Source: a virus. From it: DNA of 33,025 bases. Position 1 is the stretch's first letter. Every line of letters starts with the position of its first letter. Below the pieces are notes generated by a model. That model saw only the letters and a program-made list of their open reading frames with translations. It made no database searches and was not told the origin of the DNA. The stretch spans positions 1 through 33,025 of the IMG/VR virus record IMGVR_UViG_3300032307_000547, one strand, 5' to 3'. Positions 23,820 to 30,619 of this stretch are shown piece after piece. The position numbers and the translations under genes are program-made.

Positions 23820-23847
23820 GAAAAGTGGAAATAATTTCGTATCTTTG
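23817..23847 (+). promoter_or_regulatory. promoter P8, giving a nearly leaderless transcript
   Basis: TATCTTTG at 23840-23847 is a full -7 match. The triplet at the proper -33 position is TAG (23817-23819), one base from TTG; a TTG at 23814 is three bases too far. The ATG of the next gene is only 5 bases downstream of the box, so transcription should start at or just before that ATG. Confidence 0.55.
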
Positions 23848-23852
23848 TGTTT

Positions 23853-25085
23853 ATGAATGTAAAAGAATATTTTGAGCAATTTAAGGGAATGAAACCTTAT
23901 TTGCATATAACTAAATCTCAATGGAGTTATATAAAGGAGACATTCCCAATTGATGAAGTGAAGGAAGCACTCGCTGACCTTTGTATGGAGTATGAACTAC
24001 CATTTGCGGATATTAGTGAAAGTGATGCATTGGCGAGTTATCGTAAGTTAAAGGGGACTTGGTGGGCAGATTTACTAACAGAGGGTGAGTGGTTCCCTCG
24101 TAAAGCATCAGAGAGTAGGTATCCACTTACTTTTAGAGGAAAGCAGATGTATTTTCGTAGATTAAATACTGGAAACGAAGCATCTAACTACTTTCAACAG
24201 GAAAACCGATGGGGTGTGGATGGGACTGTATCTCCTGGTCCAAAAAGAACTTGGGAAACTAGAGAGTTTATGGTATCACTTATGGGTGGATTATATACCT
24301 TAAAGTTTGATGAAGTTGGTAAAAACGAATTGAGAGTATGTTTGGGTTTAAGAAAATACATTTGTTCCCAATTCAAACCAAATGTTGCGAAAGCACTTTA
24401 TGATTATTTGGAAGTAGAAAATGTATTGGATTTTTCTGCAGGTTGGGGTGATAGATTAGCTGGTTTTTATGCAAGTGAAACTGGAAAACACTATGTAGGA
24501 ATTGACCCAAGAAAAGAAAATCACCCAATATATCAACAACAGGCAGATTGGTATGAAAAACACAGAACATTTTTTGAGGTAGAAAAGAAAGCAGAGTTTC
24601 ATTGTTCACCTGCTGAAGATTTTGATTTTTCCCAATACCAAAACCATTTTGATATTGTATTTACATCACCACCATATTTTAATGTGGAAAGATACTCTTA
24701 CGATGAGACTCAAAGTTGGGTTAGGTATAAGAGTATAGATGCGTGGAATGAATTATTTTTACACAAAGTAATACATAATCTATGGGGGAGTATCCGTTCA
24801 GGTGGTTATTTGGCAGTGAACATTGCGGATGTGTATGCGAAATCAAATGATAGAGAAAAAGGTTATGTTGAAATCACAAATCCAATGAATGATTACATCC
24901 AATCTTTGGGTGGAGTTTATGAAGGATGTTTGGGTATGGAGATGGCAAAAAGACCAGGAAGTGCAGGAGCTGGAATGATTATTGATGGTGATGAAGACCG
25001 TTATAGTGAAGAAGCACTCGCAAAAGCTGAGGAGGGAAAAAATAAAACATTCTGCGAGCCTGTTTGGGTATTCCGTAAACCTTAA
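23853..25085 (+). CDS. TSPPYF-motif DNA methyltransferase, paralogue B
   Basis: A 410-aa protein starting at ATG 23853; a GTG at 23847 overlaps the promoter box and is unlikely. SAM-binding VLDFSAGWGDRLAGF (191-205) with HYVGIDP (213-219) precedes catalytic FTSPPYF (270-276) and NVERYSYDETQSW, aligning with paralogues A and C. GYLAVNIADVY follows as in other methyltransferase folds. The N-terminal 180 residues (helical, Trp/Tyr-rich, with PLTFRGKQMYFRRL) differ from both paralogues. SPPY points to amino-methylation of cytosine (N4), but the target and the exact chemistry are unknown. It is followed by a triple 20-base repeat and a GIY-YIG gene. Confidence 0.77.
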   Translation: MNVKEYFEQFKGMKPYLHITKSQWSYIKETFPIDEVKEALADLCMEYELPFADISESDALASYRKLKGTWWADLLTEGEWFPRKASESRYPLTFRGKQMYFRRLNTGNEASNYFQQENRWGVDGTVSPGPKRTWETREFMVSLMGGLYTLKFDEVGKNELRVCLGLRKYICSQFKPNVAKALYDYLEVENVLDFSAGWGDRLAGFYASETGKHYVGIDPRKENHPIYQQQADWYEKHRTFFEVEKKAEFHCSPAEDFDFSQYQNHFDIVFTSPPYFNVERYSYDETQSWVRYKSIDAWNELFLHKVIHNLWGSIRSGGYLAVNIADVYAKSNDREKGYVEITNPMNDYIQSLGGVYEGCLGMEMAKRPGSAGAGMIIDGDEDRYSEEALAKAEEGKNKTFCEPVWVFRKP

Positions 25086-25097
25086 AATAATATAATT

Positions 25098-25157
25098 TTT
25101 ATTACCAAATAATAATGTTTATTACCAAATCATAATATTTATTATCAAAATAAATAA
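25098..25157 (+). repeat. three tandem 20-base repeats upstream of the GIY-YIG gene
   Basis: Units start at 25098, 25118 and 25138. Units 1 and 2, beginning TTTATTACCAAAT, differ at two bases. Unit 3 keeps TTTATTAYCAAA and then diverges. They end 2 bases before the ATG of the GIY-YIG gene. About two helical turns per unit would place a bound protein on one face of DNA, so an operator is a reasonable guess. A homing target or replication slippage are alternatives. Confidence 0.75.
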
Positions 25158-25159
25158 CT

Positions 25160-25735
25160 ATGGAATATTATGTTTATAAGCATATTAGATTAAAAGATGG
25201 TTCTATTTTTTATATTGGAAAGGGTAAAGGTGATCGTATGTATTCTGATTATAGAAGAAATATATATTGGAAACGAATTGTGGAAAAAGATGGTGGATTT
25301 ACGGCTATTCTGATAAAAGAAAATCTTTCAGATAAAGAAGCTCTTGAATTGGAAAAAACTCTAATAAGTAAAATAGGTTTAGATAATTTATCTAACCTCG
25401 CTGAAGGTGGAACTGGTGGTGATACTCGTAAAGGATTTACTCAAGATGAATATGATGAATGGATACGAAATAAATCACAAGCTCAGAGAGGTAAAATTGG
25501 TTACTGGAAAAATAAAAAAAGACCAGAACATTCAGTAAAAGTAAAACAAGCTGCAAAAGATGGAGTATATGTAAATAATGGAAAATCAATTAGAACTGAT
25601 GAATGGAGGAAAGCCCAATCAATATCAGCTTCTAATAGAATTAGAAAAGTTGTTGTATGTGATAAGTGTGGTATTAAAATTTTAGATACACATTTAGCGG
25701 TACATCAAAGAGGAAAGAAATGTAAACAAACTTAA
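25160..25735 (+). CDS. GIY-YIG homing endonuclease (Seg-like, free-standing)
   Basis: A 191-aa protein. The nuclease domain is 1-85: YYVYKHIR stands for the GIY strand, FYIGKGKGDR (17-26) holds YIG and the catalytic Arg R26, the catalytic Glu lies in KEALELEKTLI (59-69), and NLAEGGTGG (79-87) closes the domain. The middle, with RKGFTQDEY and KNKKRPEHSVKVKQAA (about 117-132), looks like NUMOD-type DNA-binding segments. The C-terminus CDKCGIKILDTHLAVHQRGKKC (167-188) resembles a zinc finger with Cys/Cys/His/His/Cys. Such genes spread by cutting cognate genomes that lack them. It lies directly before the DNA polymerase gene, a favourite target in T-even phages. Its AT-rich codons suggest foreign origin. 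Confidence 0.88.
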   Translation: MEYYVYKHIRLKDGSIFYIGKGKGDRMYSDYRRNIYWKRIVEKDGGFTAILIKENLSDKEALELEKTLISKIGLDNLSNLAEGGTGGDTRKGFTQDEYDEWIRNKSQAQRGKIGYWKNKKRPEHSVKVKQAAKDGVYVNNGKSIRTDEWRKAQSISASNRIRKVVVCDKCGIKILDTHLAVHQRGKKCKQT

Positions 25736-25737
25736 AA

Positions 25738-25752
25738 AAGGAGGTCAATATT
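25738..25752 (+). promoter_or_regulatory. strong Shine-Dalgarno site and ATT start codon of the DNA polymerase
   Basis: AAGGAGGT (25738-25745) is a full-length Shine-Dalgarno sequence, 2 bases after the GIY-YIG stop. It is followed at normal spacing by ATT (25750-25752), in frame with the polymerase. No other gene start in the window has such a site. No ATG, GTG or TTG occurs in frame between the upstream stop (25723-25725) and TTG 25894. Confidence 0.7.
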
Positions 25753-28275
25753 TACCAGAACGTATATTATCAGAGAGAAAGAAACCTTGTACACTTATGG
25801 GATAGTAGGCAAGGATATAGAAACTTCCCTTACACCCGTTATGCGTATGAAAAAGCAACTAATGGAGAATACCTTTCAATTTATGGTGATAGATTGACTA
25901 AAATATATAAGTTTAAGAAAGATGACCCCTCATTATTTGAGAGTGATGTTGCTGAAACTACTAGAGTATTAGTTGATACCTACTCCGATACCGATGATGT
26001 ATCAGATGGACACATTATTTTAACTTATGATATTGAGGTTGAAATGGAAAGTGGATTGCCTGATACAAAGGAAGCAAAGAACGCTATAACATCTATTGCA
26101 TTAAATGACTCCGCTACTAATCAATACTGGGTTTTATTTGTTGATAAGGTAGGTAATATGGTTAAGAAAACTACTGAAAAGGCAATAGTTCTACCTTTTA
26201 GAAGTGAAGAGGAGTTATTACTAAAATATTTGGATATATACGAAGAAATCTCACCAACAATTGTGACGGGATGGAATATTGATAATTTTGATACTCCATA
26301 TCTATACAATCGTATTAAAAGAGTGTTGGGTGAAAAATACGCAAATAGATTATCTCCAATTGGTGAATGTTTCTGGTCACCATATCGTTCTAGATTTTTT
26401 ATGGCAGGTGTATCTTATTTGGATTACATTACACTTTACAAATATTACAACTATGGAGAACTACCAAATTACAGATTGGATACCGTTGCTCAAATAGAAT
26501 TGGATAAAGGTAAGGTTGAGTATTCAGGTAATTTGGACCAGTTATTTAGAGATGATATTGAAAAGTTTATTGAGTATAACTTAGTAGATGTTGAGTTGGT
26601 AGTTGCGTTGGATAAGAAATTGGAGTTTATTGATTTATGTAGAAACATCTGCCACGCCGGACACGTCCCTTATGAGGATTTTGTGTATTCATCAAAAGTA
26701 TTAGAGGGAGCACTTCTTACATATTTGAGAAGAAAAAACTTAGTAGCACCTAACAAACCTGCGGATAGACAGGAGAATATGGATGCATTGAGAGAAGCAG
26801 GTGAAGAGAAGTTCATTGGTGCGTATGTGAAAGACCCGATTGTGGGCAAGTACGAATGGATTTATGACTTGGACTTAACTTCACTATATCCATCAATTAT
26901 TATGACCCTAAACATTAGTCCTGAAACTAAAGTTATGAAGATTGATAATTGGGACTCTCAAAAATATATGAAGGGTGAGATTGATACTTTCTATGTTGGA
27001 ACTAAAAAAATCAGTAAAGAAAACCTAGCAAAATTATTGCAAGAAAGTGGATATACAATTTCATCAAATGGAGTCCTTTATACAAGTGATAAAGTAGGTT
27101 GTATTCCTGGTATTTTGGATTTGTGGTTCCAAAAAAGGGTTGAGTATAAGGATTTGATGAAGAAGTATGGTAAGGAGGGAGATAAAGCGAAATACGCATT
27201 TTACGGAAAAAGGCAATTGGTACAAAAGATTTTGCTGAACTCCCTATATGGTGTATTGGGATTACCAGCATTCCGTTTTTATGATATTGATAATGCAGAA
27301 GCAGTAACCTTAACTGGACAGAGGGTAATTAAATCAACTGCGGATATGGCGAATATCAAATATAATAAAGAGTTGAATACTCCTGGTGCAGACTCAAACA
27401 TTTATATTGATACAGACTCCGTATTCTTTTCAGCAGTTCCACTCTTAGACCATAGACATCCACAATGGAAAGGATTAGAGCAAACTGAAATTGCTAAATT
27501 GGTAGATGGTATTGCTGGTGAAATGCAGGATTATCTAAATAACTTTTATGATATACTCGCTTCTAAAGTATTTAATGTACCAAAGGATAAACACCGATTG
27601 GAGATTAAAAAGGAATATGTGGCGAAAGCAGGATTGTGGGTAGCAAAGAAAAGATATGCACAATGGATTATTTCAGATAATGGTGTACCTGTTGATAAAT
27701 TGGATGTTAAGGGGTTAGATGTTAAGAGAAGTTCATTCCCTAAAGCATTTCAAGATATAATGGCAGAAGTTCTTATTTCAATCCTAAGAGGCGAAACCGA
27801 AGAGGGTATATCAAATAAAGTAATGGAGTTTAAGAAAAACTTGGTAAACAGACCTGTATATGAAGTAGCTAAAAACTCTGCGGTTAAAAACTTATCCAAA
27901 TACCTTCCAAAGAAAAAGAAAGAAGCGAGGGTTTCATTTAGTGTAGAAAAGGGAACTCCTGCGCACGTTAAGGCAGCGATTGCATATAATGATTGCTTGA
28001 AACACTTTAAGTGTGCATACAAATATGAACCTATGAAAGATGGTGATAAGATTAAATGGGTATATCTAAAAGATAATCCATTGGGGTTAGAAGGTTTAGG
28101 ATTTACTGGATATAATGATCCAGATGAGATTTTAGATTTCGTAAAAACCTATATTGATTACAATAAAATCTTTGATAGAGAATTAAAAGGAAAACTACAG
28201 GATTTTTACGATGCTGTTGGTTGGGGTGAAATTGTAAATGAACAACAAAATGCGAAAAAGTTTTTTTCATTTTGA
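25750..28275 (+). CDS. 43: DNA polymerase family B (gp43-like), probable ATT start
   Basis: 841 aa if started at ATT 25750; starting at TTG 25894 would remove 48 residues. The extra N-terminus (IYQNVYYQRERNLVHLWDSR, then RYAYEK ... YLSIYGDRLTKIYKF) is clearly coding and looks like the normal beginning M-YQNVYY of such phage polymerases. Exonuclease motifs: Exo I YDIEVE (D94, E96), Exo II GWNIDNFDTPY, Exo III EYNLVDVE. Polymerase motifs: A with D375 and SLYPSI (378-383), B K493-x3-NSLYG, C YIDTDS (D554, D556). All catalytic residues are intact, so it is a proofreading replicative enzyme working with gp45 and gp44/62. Length compares with T4 gp43 (898). The gene is preceded by a GIY-YIG gene. 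Confidence 0.93.
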   Translation: MYQNVYYQRERNLVHLWDSRQGYRNFPYTRYAYEKATNGEYLSIYGDRLTKIYKFKKDDPSLFESDVAETTRVLVDTYSDTDDVSDGHIILTYDIEVEMESGLPDTKEAKNAITSIALNDSATNQYWVLFVDKVGNMVKKTTEKAIVLPFRSEEELLLKYLDIYEEISPTIVTGWNIDNFDTPYLYNRIKRVLGEKYANRLSPIGECFWSPYRSRFFMAGVSYLDYITLYKYYNYGELPNYRLDTVAQIELDKGKVEYSGNLDQLFRDDIEKFIEYNLVDVELVVALDKKLEFIDLCRNICHAGHVPYEDFVYSSKVLEGALLTYLRRKNLVAPNKPADRQENMDALREAGEEKFIGAYVKDPIVGKYEWIYDLDLTSLYPSIIMTLNISPETKVMKIDNWDSQKYMKGEIDTFYVGTKKISKENLAKLLQESGYTISSNGVLYTSDKVGCIPGILDLWFQKRVEYKDLMKKYGKEGDKAKYAFYGKRQLVQKILLNSLYGVLGLPAFRFYDIDNAEAVTLTGQRVIKSTADMANIKYNKELNTPGADSNIYIDTDSVFFSAVPLLDHRHPQWKGLEQTEIAKLVDGIAGEMQDYLNNFYDILASKVFNVPKDKHRLEIKKEYVAKAGLWVAKKRYAQWIISDNGVPVDKLDVKGLDVKRSSFPKAFQDIMAEVLISILRGETEEGISNKVMEFKKNLVNRPVYEVAKNSAVKNLSKYLPKKKKEARVSFSVEKGTPAHVKAAIAYNDCLKHFKCAYKYEPMKDGDKIKWVYLKDNPLGLEGLGFTGYNDPDEILDFVKTYIDYNKIFDRELKGKLQDFYDAVGWGEIVNEQQNAKKFFSF

Positions 28276-28331: not shown

Positions 28332-29048
28332 ATGGAAAAACAAAAATTAAATCGTTTCGTAAGCAAGTACAATCTTGCTGGACTAGTTGAGTCCGTTAAG
28401 TGGGAAGTAAAGAGTGGAGTTCTAACTACCGCATTTATTTCAGATGACAAATCAGTATTGGGTTCAGTATCTATGACTGGATTTGAGAGTGATGATGCTG
28501 TATTAGGAGTATACGATACTTCTAAACTTACAAAAATGGTAAGTGTATTGGGTGATAGTGTAGACTTTTCAGTATCAGATGTGGATGGTAGACCTATTTC
28601 ACTTAAATTCAAGGATAATTCAGTATCATTGAACTATATGTTGGCAGACCTTTCGGTTATTCCAAATGTTCCTGACTTGAAGAAATTGCCAGAGTTTGAC
28701 TCTAAAATTAAATTGGACTCAAACTTTATTTCAACATTCATCAAAGCAAAGAGTGCACTTTCTGACGAAAATACTTTTACCTTTGTATGTAATGGTGGTA
28801 GTGGAAAAATTGTAATTGGTTATTCTAACATCAACACCAACCGAATTACAATTGATGTTGATTGTGTATGTGAAGGTGGTGATAAAGGACCTATTTCTTT
28901 CTCTGCAACTTATCTGAAAGAAATCCTTACCGCTAACAGAGATGCGAAAGATGCTACTTTGAGTATTTCATCTCAAGGATTGGCACATATTCACTTTGAG
29001 GTTGATAACTACACTTCAGATTACTATTTAGTAGAACTACAAGGATAA
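28332..29048 (+). CDS. 45: sliding clamp, gp45-like processivity factor
   Basis: A 238-aa protein, close to T4 gp45 (228). It is an all alpha/beta repeat protein of the clamp type: VESVKWEVKSGVLTTAFISDD, MTGFESDDAVLGVYDTSKLTKMVSVLGD (the first domain's helix with its acidic inner face), FIKAKSALSDENTFTFVCNGGSGKIVIGY, and the closing strand SDYYLVELQG. It forms a trimeric ring that tethers gp43 and, in T4, activates late transcription. Recognition is by overall pattern and by the setting between polymerase and clamp loader. Its TAA overlaps the ATG of methyltransferase C (TAATG). Confidence 0.85.
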   Translation: MEKQKLNRFVSKYNLAGLVESVKWEVKSGVLTTAFISDDKSVLGSVSMTGFESDDAVLGVYDTSKLTKMVSVLGDSVDFSVSDVDGRPISLKFKDNSVSLNYMLADLSVIPNVPDLKKLPEFDSKIKLDSNFISTFIKAKSALSDENTFTFVCNGGSGKIVIGYSNINTNRITIDVDCVCEGGDKGPISFSATYLKEILTANRDAKDATLSISSQGLAHIHFEVDNYTSDYYLVELQG

Positions 29049-30619
29049 TGGGATTGCCATATAAGAAAAAGTATTTTTACGAAAGAAATCAGTGGTTGCT
29101 TAATCCTGAAACTAACCTCACTTATGAGGAAGTGCTGAAAATGTCTTATCCTGACTTTGAGAAGTGGGTAGATTTTTTTAGAAAAAAGGTTATTGAAACT
29201 TGGGATACTACCGGAGCACCTCCAAAGATTGGGGTTGATGAACCGGAGATGATTGAACAATTCTCAAAATTGCAGGCATACAAAGTTGAAAAGTTTGAGG
29301 AAACTGATGATGAGGGTAATGAAGTTATTTTTAACTTTAATAAATTCGCAACTCCCGTAAATCAATTTTTTCCGGCAATGTACAAAACAAAAATCGGTGG
29401 GTCAACTTATGACTCACCGAAACCTTCTATTTATGATGTATTTGTTGATGATACATACCTACCACTTTTCATTAAACAAATGAGAAGATTGACGAGGCAG
29501 GATGGAATGTATAGGTTTTCTAAAACCCTACACATGGGAAATCCTGACTTTCATAATTCTCACATCCAAACTGGAAAGGAATGGATTGAAAAATGGATGA
29601 GTGGTGATAAATTAGAAGGACATGATTTTTGTTTATCTCAAGCAAACTCTAAAATACCTTCACCTCCAATAACTGCGGAAGAAGTTAAAGAGTTGTATAG
29701 AAATGGTAAGTTGGAGTACAAACACATATCTTCTCTAAAAACTGCAGAATGGGGTGAGAATATTGATAATTTAGTTGATATTGAGAAACAACCTATTCAG
29801 ATATGTATTTATCCATTAGGACAAACAATCTTTCCAGAAGCAACTGCGGCATTCCGTATTGGTATGGGAACACAACCTGCGGTTAACTTTCCACCACTAA
29901 CTGCAAAGTATCTATACAAAAGATTTACAGAGCATGTTAAAGACCAAGATGTAGTAAACATTTATGACCCTTCCGCTGGGTGGGGTGGTAGAATATTAGG
30001 AGCAATGAGTTTGGATGATAGAAATATCCATTACATAGGAAATGACCCTAATACTGAAAACTACATTGAGGAAATTGGAAAAACTAGGTATGAGTATTTG
30101 GCAGAGTTTTTCAATGAAAATACTGTTGGAGCTAGTAATGCATTTTGGGGACACCAAAACACTTATGATATTTTCCAAACCGGTTCTGAAATAATCCATT
30201 TGGATAGTAGATTTCAATCCTATAAGGGTAAGTTAGATATGGTATTTACTTCACCACCATACTTTGATAGAGAAAGATACTCCGATGATGAAAGTCAATC
30301 ATTTAGAAAGTTCAATTCATACGAAAGTTGGAGAGATGGATTTTTGAGACCCACCCTAACAACTGCGTTTGAGTGGTTGAGAAACGATAGATACATTCTA
30401 TGGAACATTGCTGATATTAAAGTTGGTAAGGATAAGTGGTTTACATTAGAGCAGGATAGTATTGATATACTTACTGAATTGGGATGTGAGTACAGAGGAA
30501 AGTTGAGAATGACGATGTCACCTATGACTGGAATTGATATGAGTGGTGTAAAAAATAGTATGCGGATAAATGGAACTGCATACAAATACGAACCAATCTT
30601 CATATTCTACAAACCTTAA
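29048..30619 (+). CDS. TSPPYF-motif DNA methyltransferase, paralogue C
   Basis: A 523-aa protein, the longest of the three. SAM-binding IYDPSAGWGGRILGA (305-319) with HYIGNDP (328-334) precedes catalytic FTSPPYF (400-406) and DRERYSDDESQSFRKF, matching paralogues A and B. The 300-residue N-terminal part is unique to this copy and includes FFRKKVIETWDTTGAPPKIG (43-62) and YPLGQTIFPEATAAFRIG; it may recognise DNA or a partner. It is translationally coupled to the sliding clamp (TAATG) and separates gp45 from the clamp loader, which are close together in T4. This hints at modification at the replication fork, but that is inference. Confidence 0.77.
   Translation: MGLPYKKKYFYERNQWLLNPETNLTYEEVLKMSYPDFEKWVDFFRKKVIETWDTTGAPPKIGVDEPEMIEQFSKLQAYKVEKFEETDDEGNEVIFNFNKFATPVNQFFPAMYKTKIGGSTYDSPKPSIYDVFVDDTYLPLFIKQMRRLTRQDGMYRFSKTLHMGNPDFHNSHIQTGKEWIEKWMSGDKLEGHDFCLSQANSKIPSPPITAEEVKELYRNGKLEYKHISSLKTAEWGENIDNLVDIEKQPIQICIYPLGQTIFPEATAAFRIGMGTQPAVNFPPLTAKYLYKRFTEHVKDQDVVNIYDPSAGWGGRILGAMSLDDRNIHYIGNDPNTENYIEEIGKTRYEYLAEFFNENTVGASNAFWGHQNTYDIFQTGSEIIHLDSRFQSYKGKLDMVFTSPPYFDRERYSDDESQSFRKFNSYESWRDGFLRPTLTTAFEWLRNDRYILWNIADIKVGKDKWFTLEQDSIDILTELGCEYRGKLRMTMSPMTGIDMSGVKNSMRINGTAYKYEPIFIFYKP

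Follow-up and report, generated by a model that had tools for sequence, protein, structure and literature searches.

The window analysed here is a stretch of viral DNA of 33,025 nt (IMG/VR record IMGVR_UViG_3300032307_000547). The features around its DNA polymerase gene are listed in Table 1. The polymerase is gp43-like: both the exonuclease and the polymerase domains of PolB and a phage DNA polymerase profile are matched (PF03104, PF00136, PHROG 262). The gene upstream of it encodes a GIY-YIG domain protein (PF22945, PHROG 314) and ends with a stop 14 nt ahead of ATT 25750. Two methylase-like genes (23847-25085 and 29048-30619) flank the polymerase and clamp genes; both match PHROG 12517 and, weakly, a DNA methylase.

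Table 1. Features of the polymerase locus (positions in the window; SD, Shine-Dalgarno)
Feature	Position	Strand	Evidence and remarks
Upstream methylase-like gene	23847..25085	+	~97% identity with L002 as far as the insertion junction (25090)
Three direct repeats ATAATNTTTATTAYCA in the endonuclease leader	25092..25147	+	20 bp spacing; two such repeats in L262 and L263
GIY-YIG homing endonuclease with C-terminal zinc-finger-like cysteine/histidine motif	25160..25735	+	PF22945 2e-7; PHROG 314 homing endonuclease 5e-13
Extended SD AAAGGAGGT	25737..25745	+	9 contiguous pairs with 16S tail, -13.4 kcal/mol, 4-nt spacer
ATT initiation codon of polymerase	25750..25752	+	aligned to the initiator of ~200 relatives
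Conversion tract, first ~180 nt of polymerase	25750..25930	+	85-90% identity to L002, rising to mostly 95-100% in the following 1.5 kb
DNA polymerase B (gp43-like), 841 aa, proposed AUU start	25750..28275	+	PF00136 4e-40; PF03104 5e-20; PHROG 262 E 2e-185

The polymerase frame follows a TAA at 25723 and is open from 25726. The earliest in-frame ATG, GTG or TTG is TTG 25894, and the frame scan thus bears out the initial annotation, which had seen no such codon between the stop and this TTG. Codons 1-48 encode IYQNVYYQRERNLVHLWDSRQGYRNFPYTRYAYEKATNGEYLSIYGDR. In tblastn searches this segment aligned from residue 1 with most of 80 viral contigs, and in Microcystis phage Mel-JY01 the annotated polymerase begins with ATG at the codon matching ATT 25750. 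In codons 2-48 the window and L002 differ at 14 codons and in just 3 amino acids; the changes are mostly synonymous, which indicates constraint at the protein level. The 48 codons had been read as the polymerase N-terminus, with ATT at the position of the usual Met, and the alignments agree on both points. TTG 25894 is the first conventional start codon and the one reported by a mechanical list of open reading frames, but it is a highly improbable start, as the 48 codons upstream of it are conserved with mostly synonymous change, and L002 has CTA at the matching codon.

After dereplication, codon 1 of the polymerase is ATG in 135 relatives, ATG with one extra codon in 11, TTG in 16, ATT in 6, ATC in 3 and GTG in 2, and no other codon was observed. 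If this were mere replacement of Met, CTN, TTA and ATA would also occur; their absence argues for a genuine start. This is the comparison of the same position in related phages that the initial annotation had proposed, and AUU recurs exactly there. Besides the window, ATT was found in L017, L050, L118, L262, L263, L264, L349, L351, L353 and L358 (at least six further lineages), and ATC in L020, L112 and L119. The tree contains 13 changes between ATG and non-ATG codons, and seven for ATT or ATC. The downstream clamp gene has ATG in 134 of 135 cases. The restriction of codon 1 to start codons, the ATG of the clamp gene and the mostly synonymous change in codons 2-48 make the start at 25750 secure, as judged by comparison. 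A single base would turn ATT into ATG, so a sequencing or assembly error at base 25752 was considered. It is practically negligible, as the same codon with the same SD occurs in several other contigs from different metagenomes. The recurrence of ATT, the strong SD and the near-invariant clamp ATG thus speak against both the error and the TTG start. As in infC, AUU stands at a conserved initiator position with no usable start upstream.

Within the extended SD, AAGGAGGT occupies positions 25738-25745, 4 nt before the ATT. For pairing we used the 16S tail UCACCUCCUUUCU, which we take from general knowledge of Bacteroidota 16S. Host and tail are those inferred for this record, and the tail is numbered as in PMC9976891. 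With this inferred tail, all other called starts of the window pair at -4.6 kcal/mol or weaker, the false start at 25894 (-7.2) being left out. The site had been described as the only strong SD, which is right for gene starts: further copies of AAGGAGGT at 1372 and 14272 do not lie at called starts. Pairing of -13 or stronger was found at 44 of 11003 random positions. The starts of the window show SD depletion (their median is -1.0, that of mock windows -3.75), and this confirms an unusually strong SD in an otherwise SD-avoiding phage. Starts are not SD-enriched, and tend to SD depletion, also in G001, G002, G011 and G032, as fits phages of hosts that ignore SD signals. SD use as a general rule of the group was therefore rejected for the window and these four genomes; it is weak in G010, which is slightly SD-enriched, and holds only for G003, which alone uses SD widely. 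The hosts are probably Bacteroidota that normally ignore SD signals. In the 120-kb phage of L349 the polymerase SD reaches -17.0, and the strongest of 112 other called starts -9.5. Both this site and that of the window (-13.4) are thus genome outliers of the rpsU type (about -13 kcal/mol or stronger). The SD of L118 is ordinary, since its phage uses SD throughout (52 of 142 starts at -7 or stronger versus 4 in the mock set).

In the SD-depleted relatives a strong SD is retained by a few genes (L246, L248, L257, L258, L260, L261; G011, G001, G002): one, PLP-like and of 280 aa, lies upstream of the polymerase (-10.3 to -11.2), and the other, of 167 aa, is preceded by TTAGGAGGT or CAGGAGGT (about -11).

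Six of the seven ATT alleles of the main set have a strong SD. At a threshold of -10, a strong SD accompanies 6 ATT, 1 GTG and 1 ATG alleles, and only 1 of the 165 alleles without it is ATT (p 6e-9, phylogeny not corrected for). With the window and the loci from the endonuclease search left out, the association has p 0.001, likewise uncorrected for phylogeny. The ATT of L017 and the ATC of L020, L112 and L119 have no SD, and thus near-cognate starts here do not strictly require one.

The polymerase protein of L002 is 98% identical to that of the window, but its locus lacks the 25160-25735 gene, and the polymerase starts with ATG without an SD. The three closest relatives of the endonuclease in IMG/VR all lie directly upstream of polymerases starting with SD and ATT. 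The layout common to the window and these loci is the endonuclease stop, AAAAAGGAGGT, 4 nt and ATT. Endonuclease-free polymerases identical or nearly identical to those of the endonuclease relatives have ATG directly after the upstream stop. Three sister pairs were observed (window/L002, L262/L268, L263/L328), each a present/absent polymorphism with a conversion tract; the allele with the endonuclease always has SD and ATT, the other ATG. Thus the endonuclease, SD and ATT have together entered at least three lineages, with short conversion tracts. The endonucleases have diverged to 62-72% identity; AAAGGAGGT and ATT are kept and the spacer varies. This comparison indicates that the window allele was imported along with the GIY-YIG gene and that the surroundings of the polymerase start are not native. 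The initial annotation was right on the start and the SD, but not on their setting: the adjacent upstream gene encodes a homing endonuclease and is missing in the closest relative. An intron separating the polymerase from an upstream exon was rejected, as no Rfam match was found in the window and the endonuclease gene has hardly any non-coding sequence around it. No TAnnTTTG promoter was seen within the endonuclease gene in the three loci checked.

The best explanation, to which we assign a probability of roughly 0.7, is that GIY-YIG insertion and gene conversion brought SD and AUU, with low, SD-dependent polymerase output from AUU 25750. The comparison shows the insertion, placed precisely at the boundary of the upstream gene and the polymerase, with its conversion tract, and likewise the start position, the strong SD, the recurrence and the ATG sister alleles; conversion swapped the native ATG context for a module of extended SD (AAAGGAGGT) and AUU. 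The host ribosomes would mostly ignore SD, and AUU is probably too weak alone, so initiation would rest on pairing of the SD with the 16S tail. Since IF3 discriminates against AUU, which depends on strong contacts of the mRNA with the ribosome, the extended SD is likely required. The SD would recruit by direct pairing, and the IF3-disfavoured AUU would limit. With the polymerase parted from its old start context by the insertion, the pair would then set a lower output that depends on SD, and metering of the polymerase amount by AUU and the strong SD is likely. Such output would follow the supply of ribosomes whose anti-SD is exposed.

A different role of the endonuclease would be self-protection: its target would span the polymerase start, alleles with the endonuclease would have shed ATG and recoded codons 2-4 to escape cleavage, and the SD would repair the translational damage. 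Indeed, the insertion is exactly at the start codon, the conversion tracts begin there, and alleles with the endonuclease have CAG at codon 3. On the other hand, insertion at the site would by itself destroy the target, and ATT persists without the endonuclease in L050, L351 and L358. G or C at the third position of codon 3 is commoner in non-ATG alleles (13 of 29 versus 12 of 147; not significant after tree correction, p about 0.18). In L262 and L263 the repeats of the endonuclease leader, a possible operator, are similar to the polymerase start (the top match among 250 and 221 windows, respectively), much as the operator and the homing site of I-TevI are alike (PMC2988022), but the match fails in the window, where it ranks 63 of 247. 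We consider self-protection unlikely.

Further polymerase starts with SD and ATT were located by a pattern scan in L358, L349 and L351/L353. In L358 the start lies beside a short stretch resembling the 3' end of the endonuclease, an apparent remnant. L349 and L351/L353 have their own TAnnTTTG promoter; L351 is endonuclease-free, and the GIY-YIG gene of L349 lies farther upstream and is more distant (42% identity). L050 and L118 also have SD and ATT, with different spacing. As the combination occurs both beside the endonuclease and in such loci, it is a recurrent module of polymerase starts, frequently though not invariably found with the endonuclease.

TAnnTTTG, presumably the Bacteroidota promoter pattern, precedes the polymerase in many relatives, which fits Bacteroidota hosts. 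These boxes bear on a more general reading, in which the strength of the start codon drifts to offset the upstream context and the endonuclease is incidental. It predicts TTG, ATT or ATC behind leadered promoters or a strong SD, and ATG at coupled starts or where the promoter is right at the gene. Leadered TAnnTTTG promoters precede 11 non-ATG and 7 ATG polymerases; all six polymerases with the promoter at -13 have ATG, as do 87 of the 90 with an upstream stop within 6 nt. Correction for the tree leaves about 4-5 independent pairs to 0 (p 0.06), a marginal support; one clade retains ATG despite leadered promoters, and the invariant AAAGGAGGT is not explained. This tuning overlaps with our preferred reading, and we put it slightly short of an even chance. 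In L003, L005, L009-L013, L015 and L054 the TAnnTTTG lies 13 nt ahead of the polymerase ATG, and thus these transcripts may be leaderless or nearly so.

The initial annotation had drawn a parallel with T4 gp43; the translational operator of T4/RB69 gp43 acts at the polymerase ribosome-binding site. This parallel was not supported: no stable fold was observed at the polymerase start in the window and relatives (z-scores from -0.9 to 1.8, no better than shuffles), which together with the lack of an Rfam match led us to reject a hairpin operator.

On the ribosome side, bS21 is encoded in 10 of the 22 first relative records and in three records searched later; none was found in the window record, a 33 kb fragment. 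Tyr54 of F. johnsoniae bS21 holds the anti-SD. The residue aligned to it (7JIL) is Arg in ten phage bS21 proteins and Ala in one. Four of those in which it is replaced carry a Tyr or Trp two to three residues downstream, and thus a shifted alignment could restore an aromatic residue there; six have none nearby. F. johnsoniae ribosomes lacking bS21 use strong SD, the SD energy of the window being within the range, and Y54A ribosomes yield about 3-fold more product from a strong-SD template in vitro (PMC9976891). The lack of a Tyr54 equivalent in bS21 of several relatives fits gating by ribosome composition, and, taken with the Y54A result, makes gating of polymerase mRNA by anti-SD-exposed ribosomes plausible. 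The stricter form is unlikely: AUU with an rpsU-class SD would be started efficiently only by 30S subunits with exposed anti-SD (lacking host bS21, or with phage bS21 without the Tyr54 clamp), so that ribosome composition would set polymerase output. No IF3 gene was found in 13 records searched, no phage tRNAs in the window or ~384 kb of relatives, and no phage rpsU with its own strong SD was seen except in G003. The search for host genomes carrying this polymerase gave one short match with 40% identity.

To our knowledge, AUU is the established start of very few genes. The single elements, namely strong SD, AUU starts, phage bS21 and homing endonucleases beside replication genes, are already known separately. 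The infC gene of E. coli starts with AUU and is repressed by IF3, a case of a near-cognate start limiting a potent protein; sigR of Streptomyces, repressed in the same way, combines a near-cognate start (GTC) with a long SD (AGGAGGTG) (PMC5472188). Here, unlike both, the gene encodes a phage replicative polymerase in SD-avoiding genomes, and the relatives searched have no IF3 gene. The single outlier SD (-13 kcal/mol or stronger) in an SD-depleted genome is analogous to rpsU of Flavobacteriales, where an exceptionally strong SD is read by ribosomes lacking bS21 and to which SD-dependent control in Flavobacteriales had been taken to be limited (PMC9976891); the present case differs in being a polymerase gene with an AUU start. 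The free-standing seg/mob endonucleases of T4, such as segG beside gene 32, likewise lie next to an essential gene of replication and show a conversion tract. T4 segG contains promoters of the downstream gene (PMC2988022), whereas the flanking signal here is a ribosome-binding site with a start codon and no promoter. The open-access literature searched contained no description of a phage polymerase starting with AUU, nor of a homing endonuclease moving with the SD and near-cognate start of its neighbour, such absence being weak evidence. The locus is one in which a homing endonuclease travels together with the ribosome-binding site of an essential neighbour.

With such a natural set of alleles (ATG without SD, AUU with SD), whose proteins are near-identical, one can test directly if AUU is rescued by an extended SD on Bacteroidota ribosomes, and also if phages exploit ribosomes that have a free anti-SD. 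Genes with near-cognate starts such as sigR are missed by gene callers (PMC5472188), and AUU-started polymerases of this sort will be truncated.

Two minor observations may be added. The bS21 proteins of L238, L239, L240, L347, L348 and L360 have Arg at the Tyr54 position, in contrast to Chen et al. (PMC9723584), who reported late expression and, for every phage bS21 of theirs, an aromatic residue. Polymerase codons 2-48 of L112 differ from those of L018 and L131 at 14-15 of 47 positions, all synonymous, and the next 352 codons at only 22-29, which suggests an exchange of the start region without an endonuclease.
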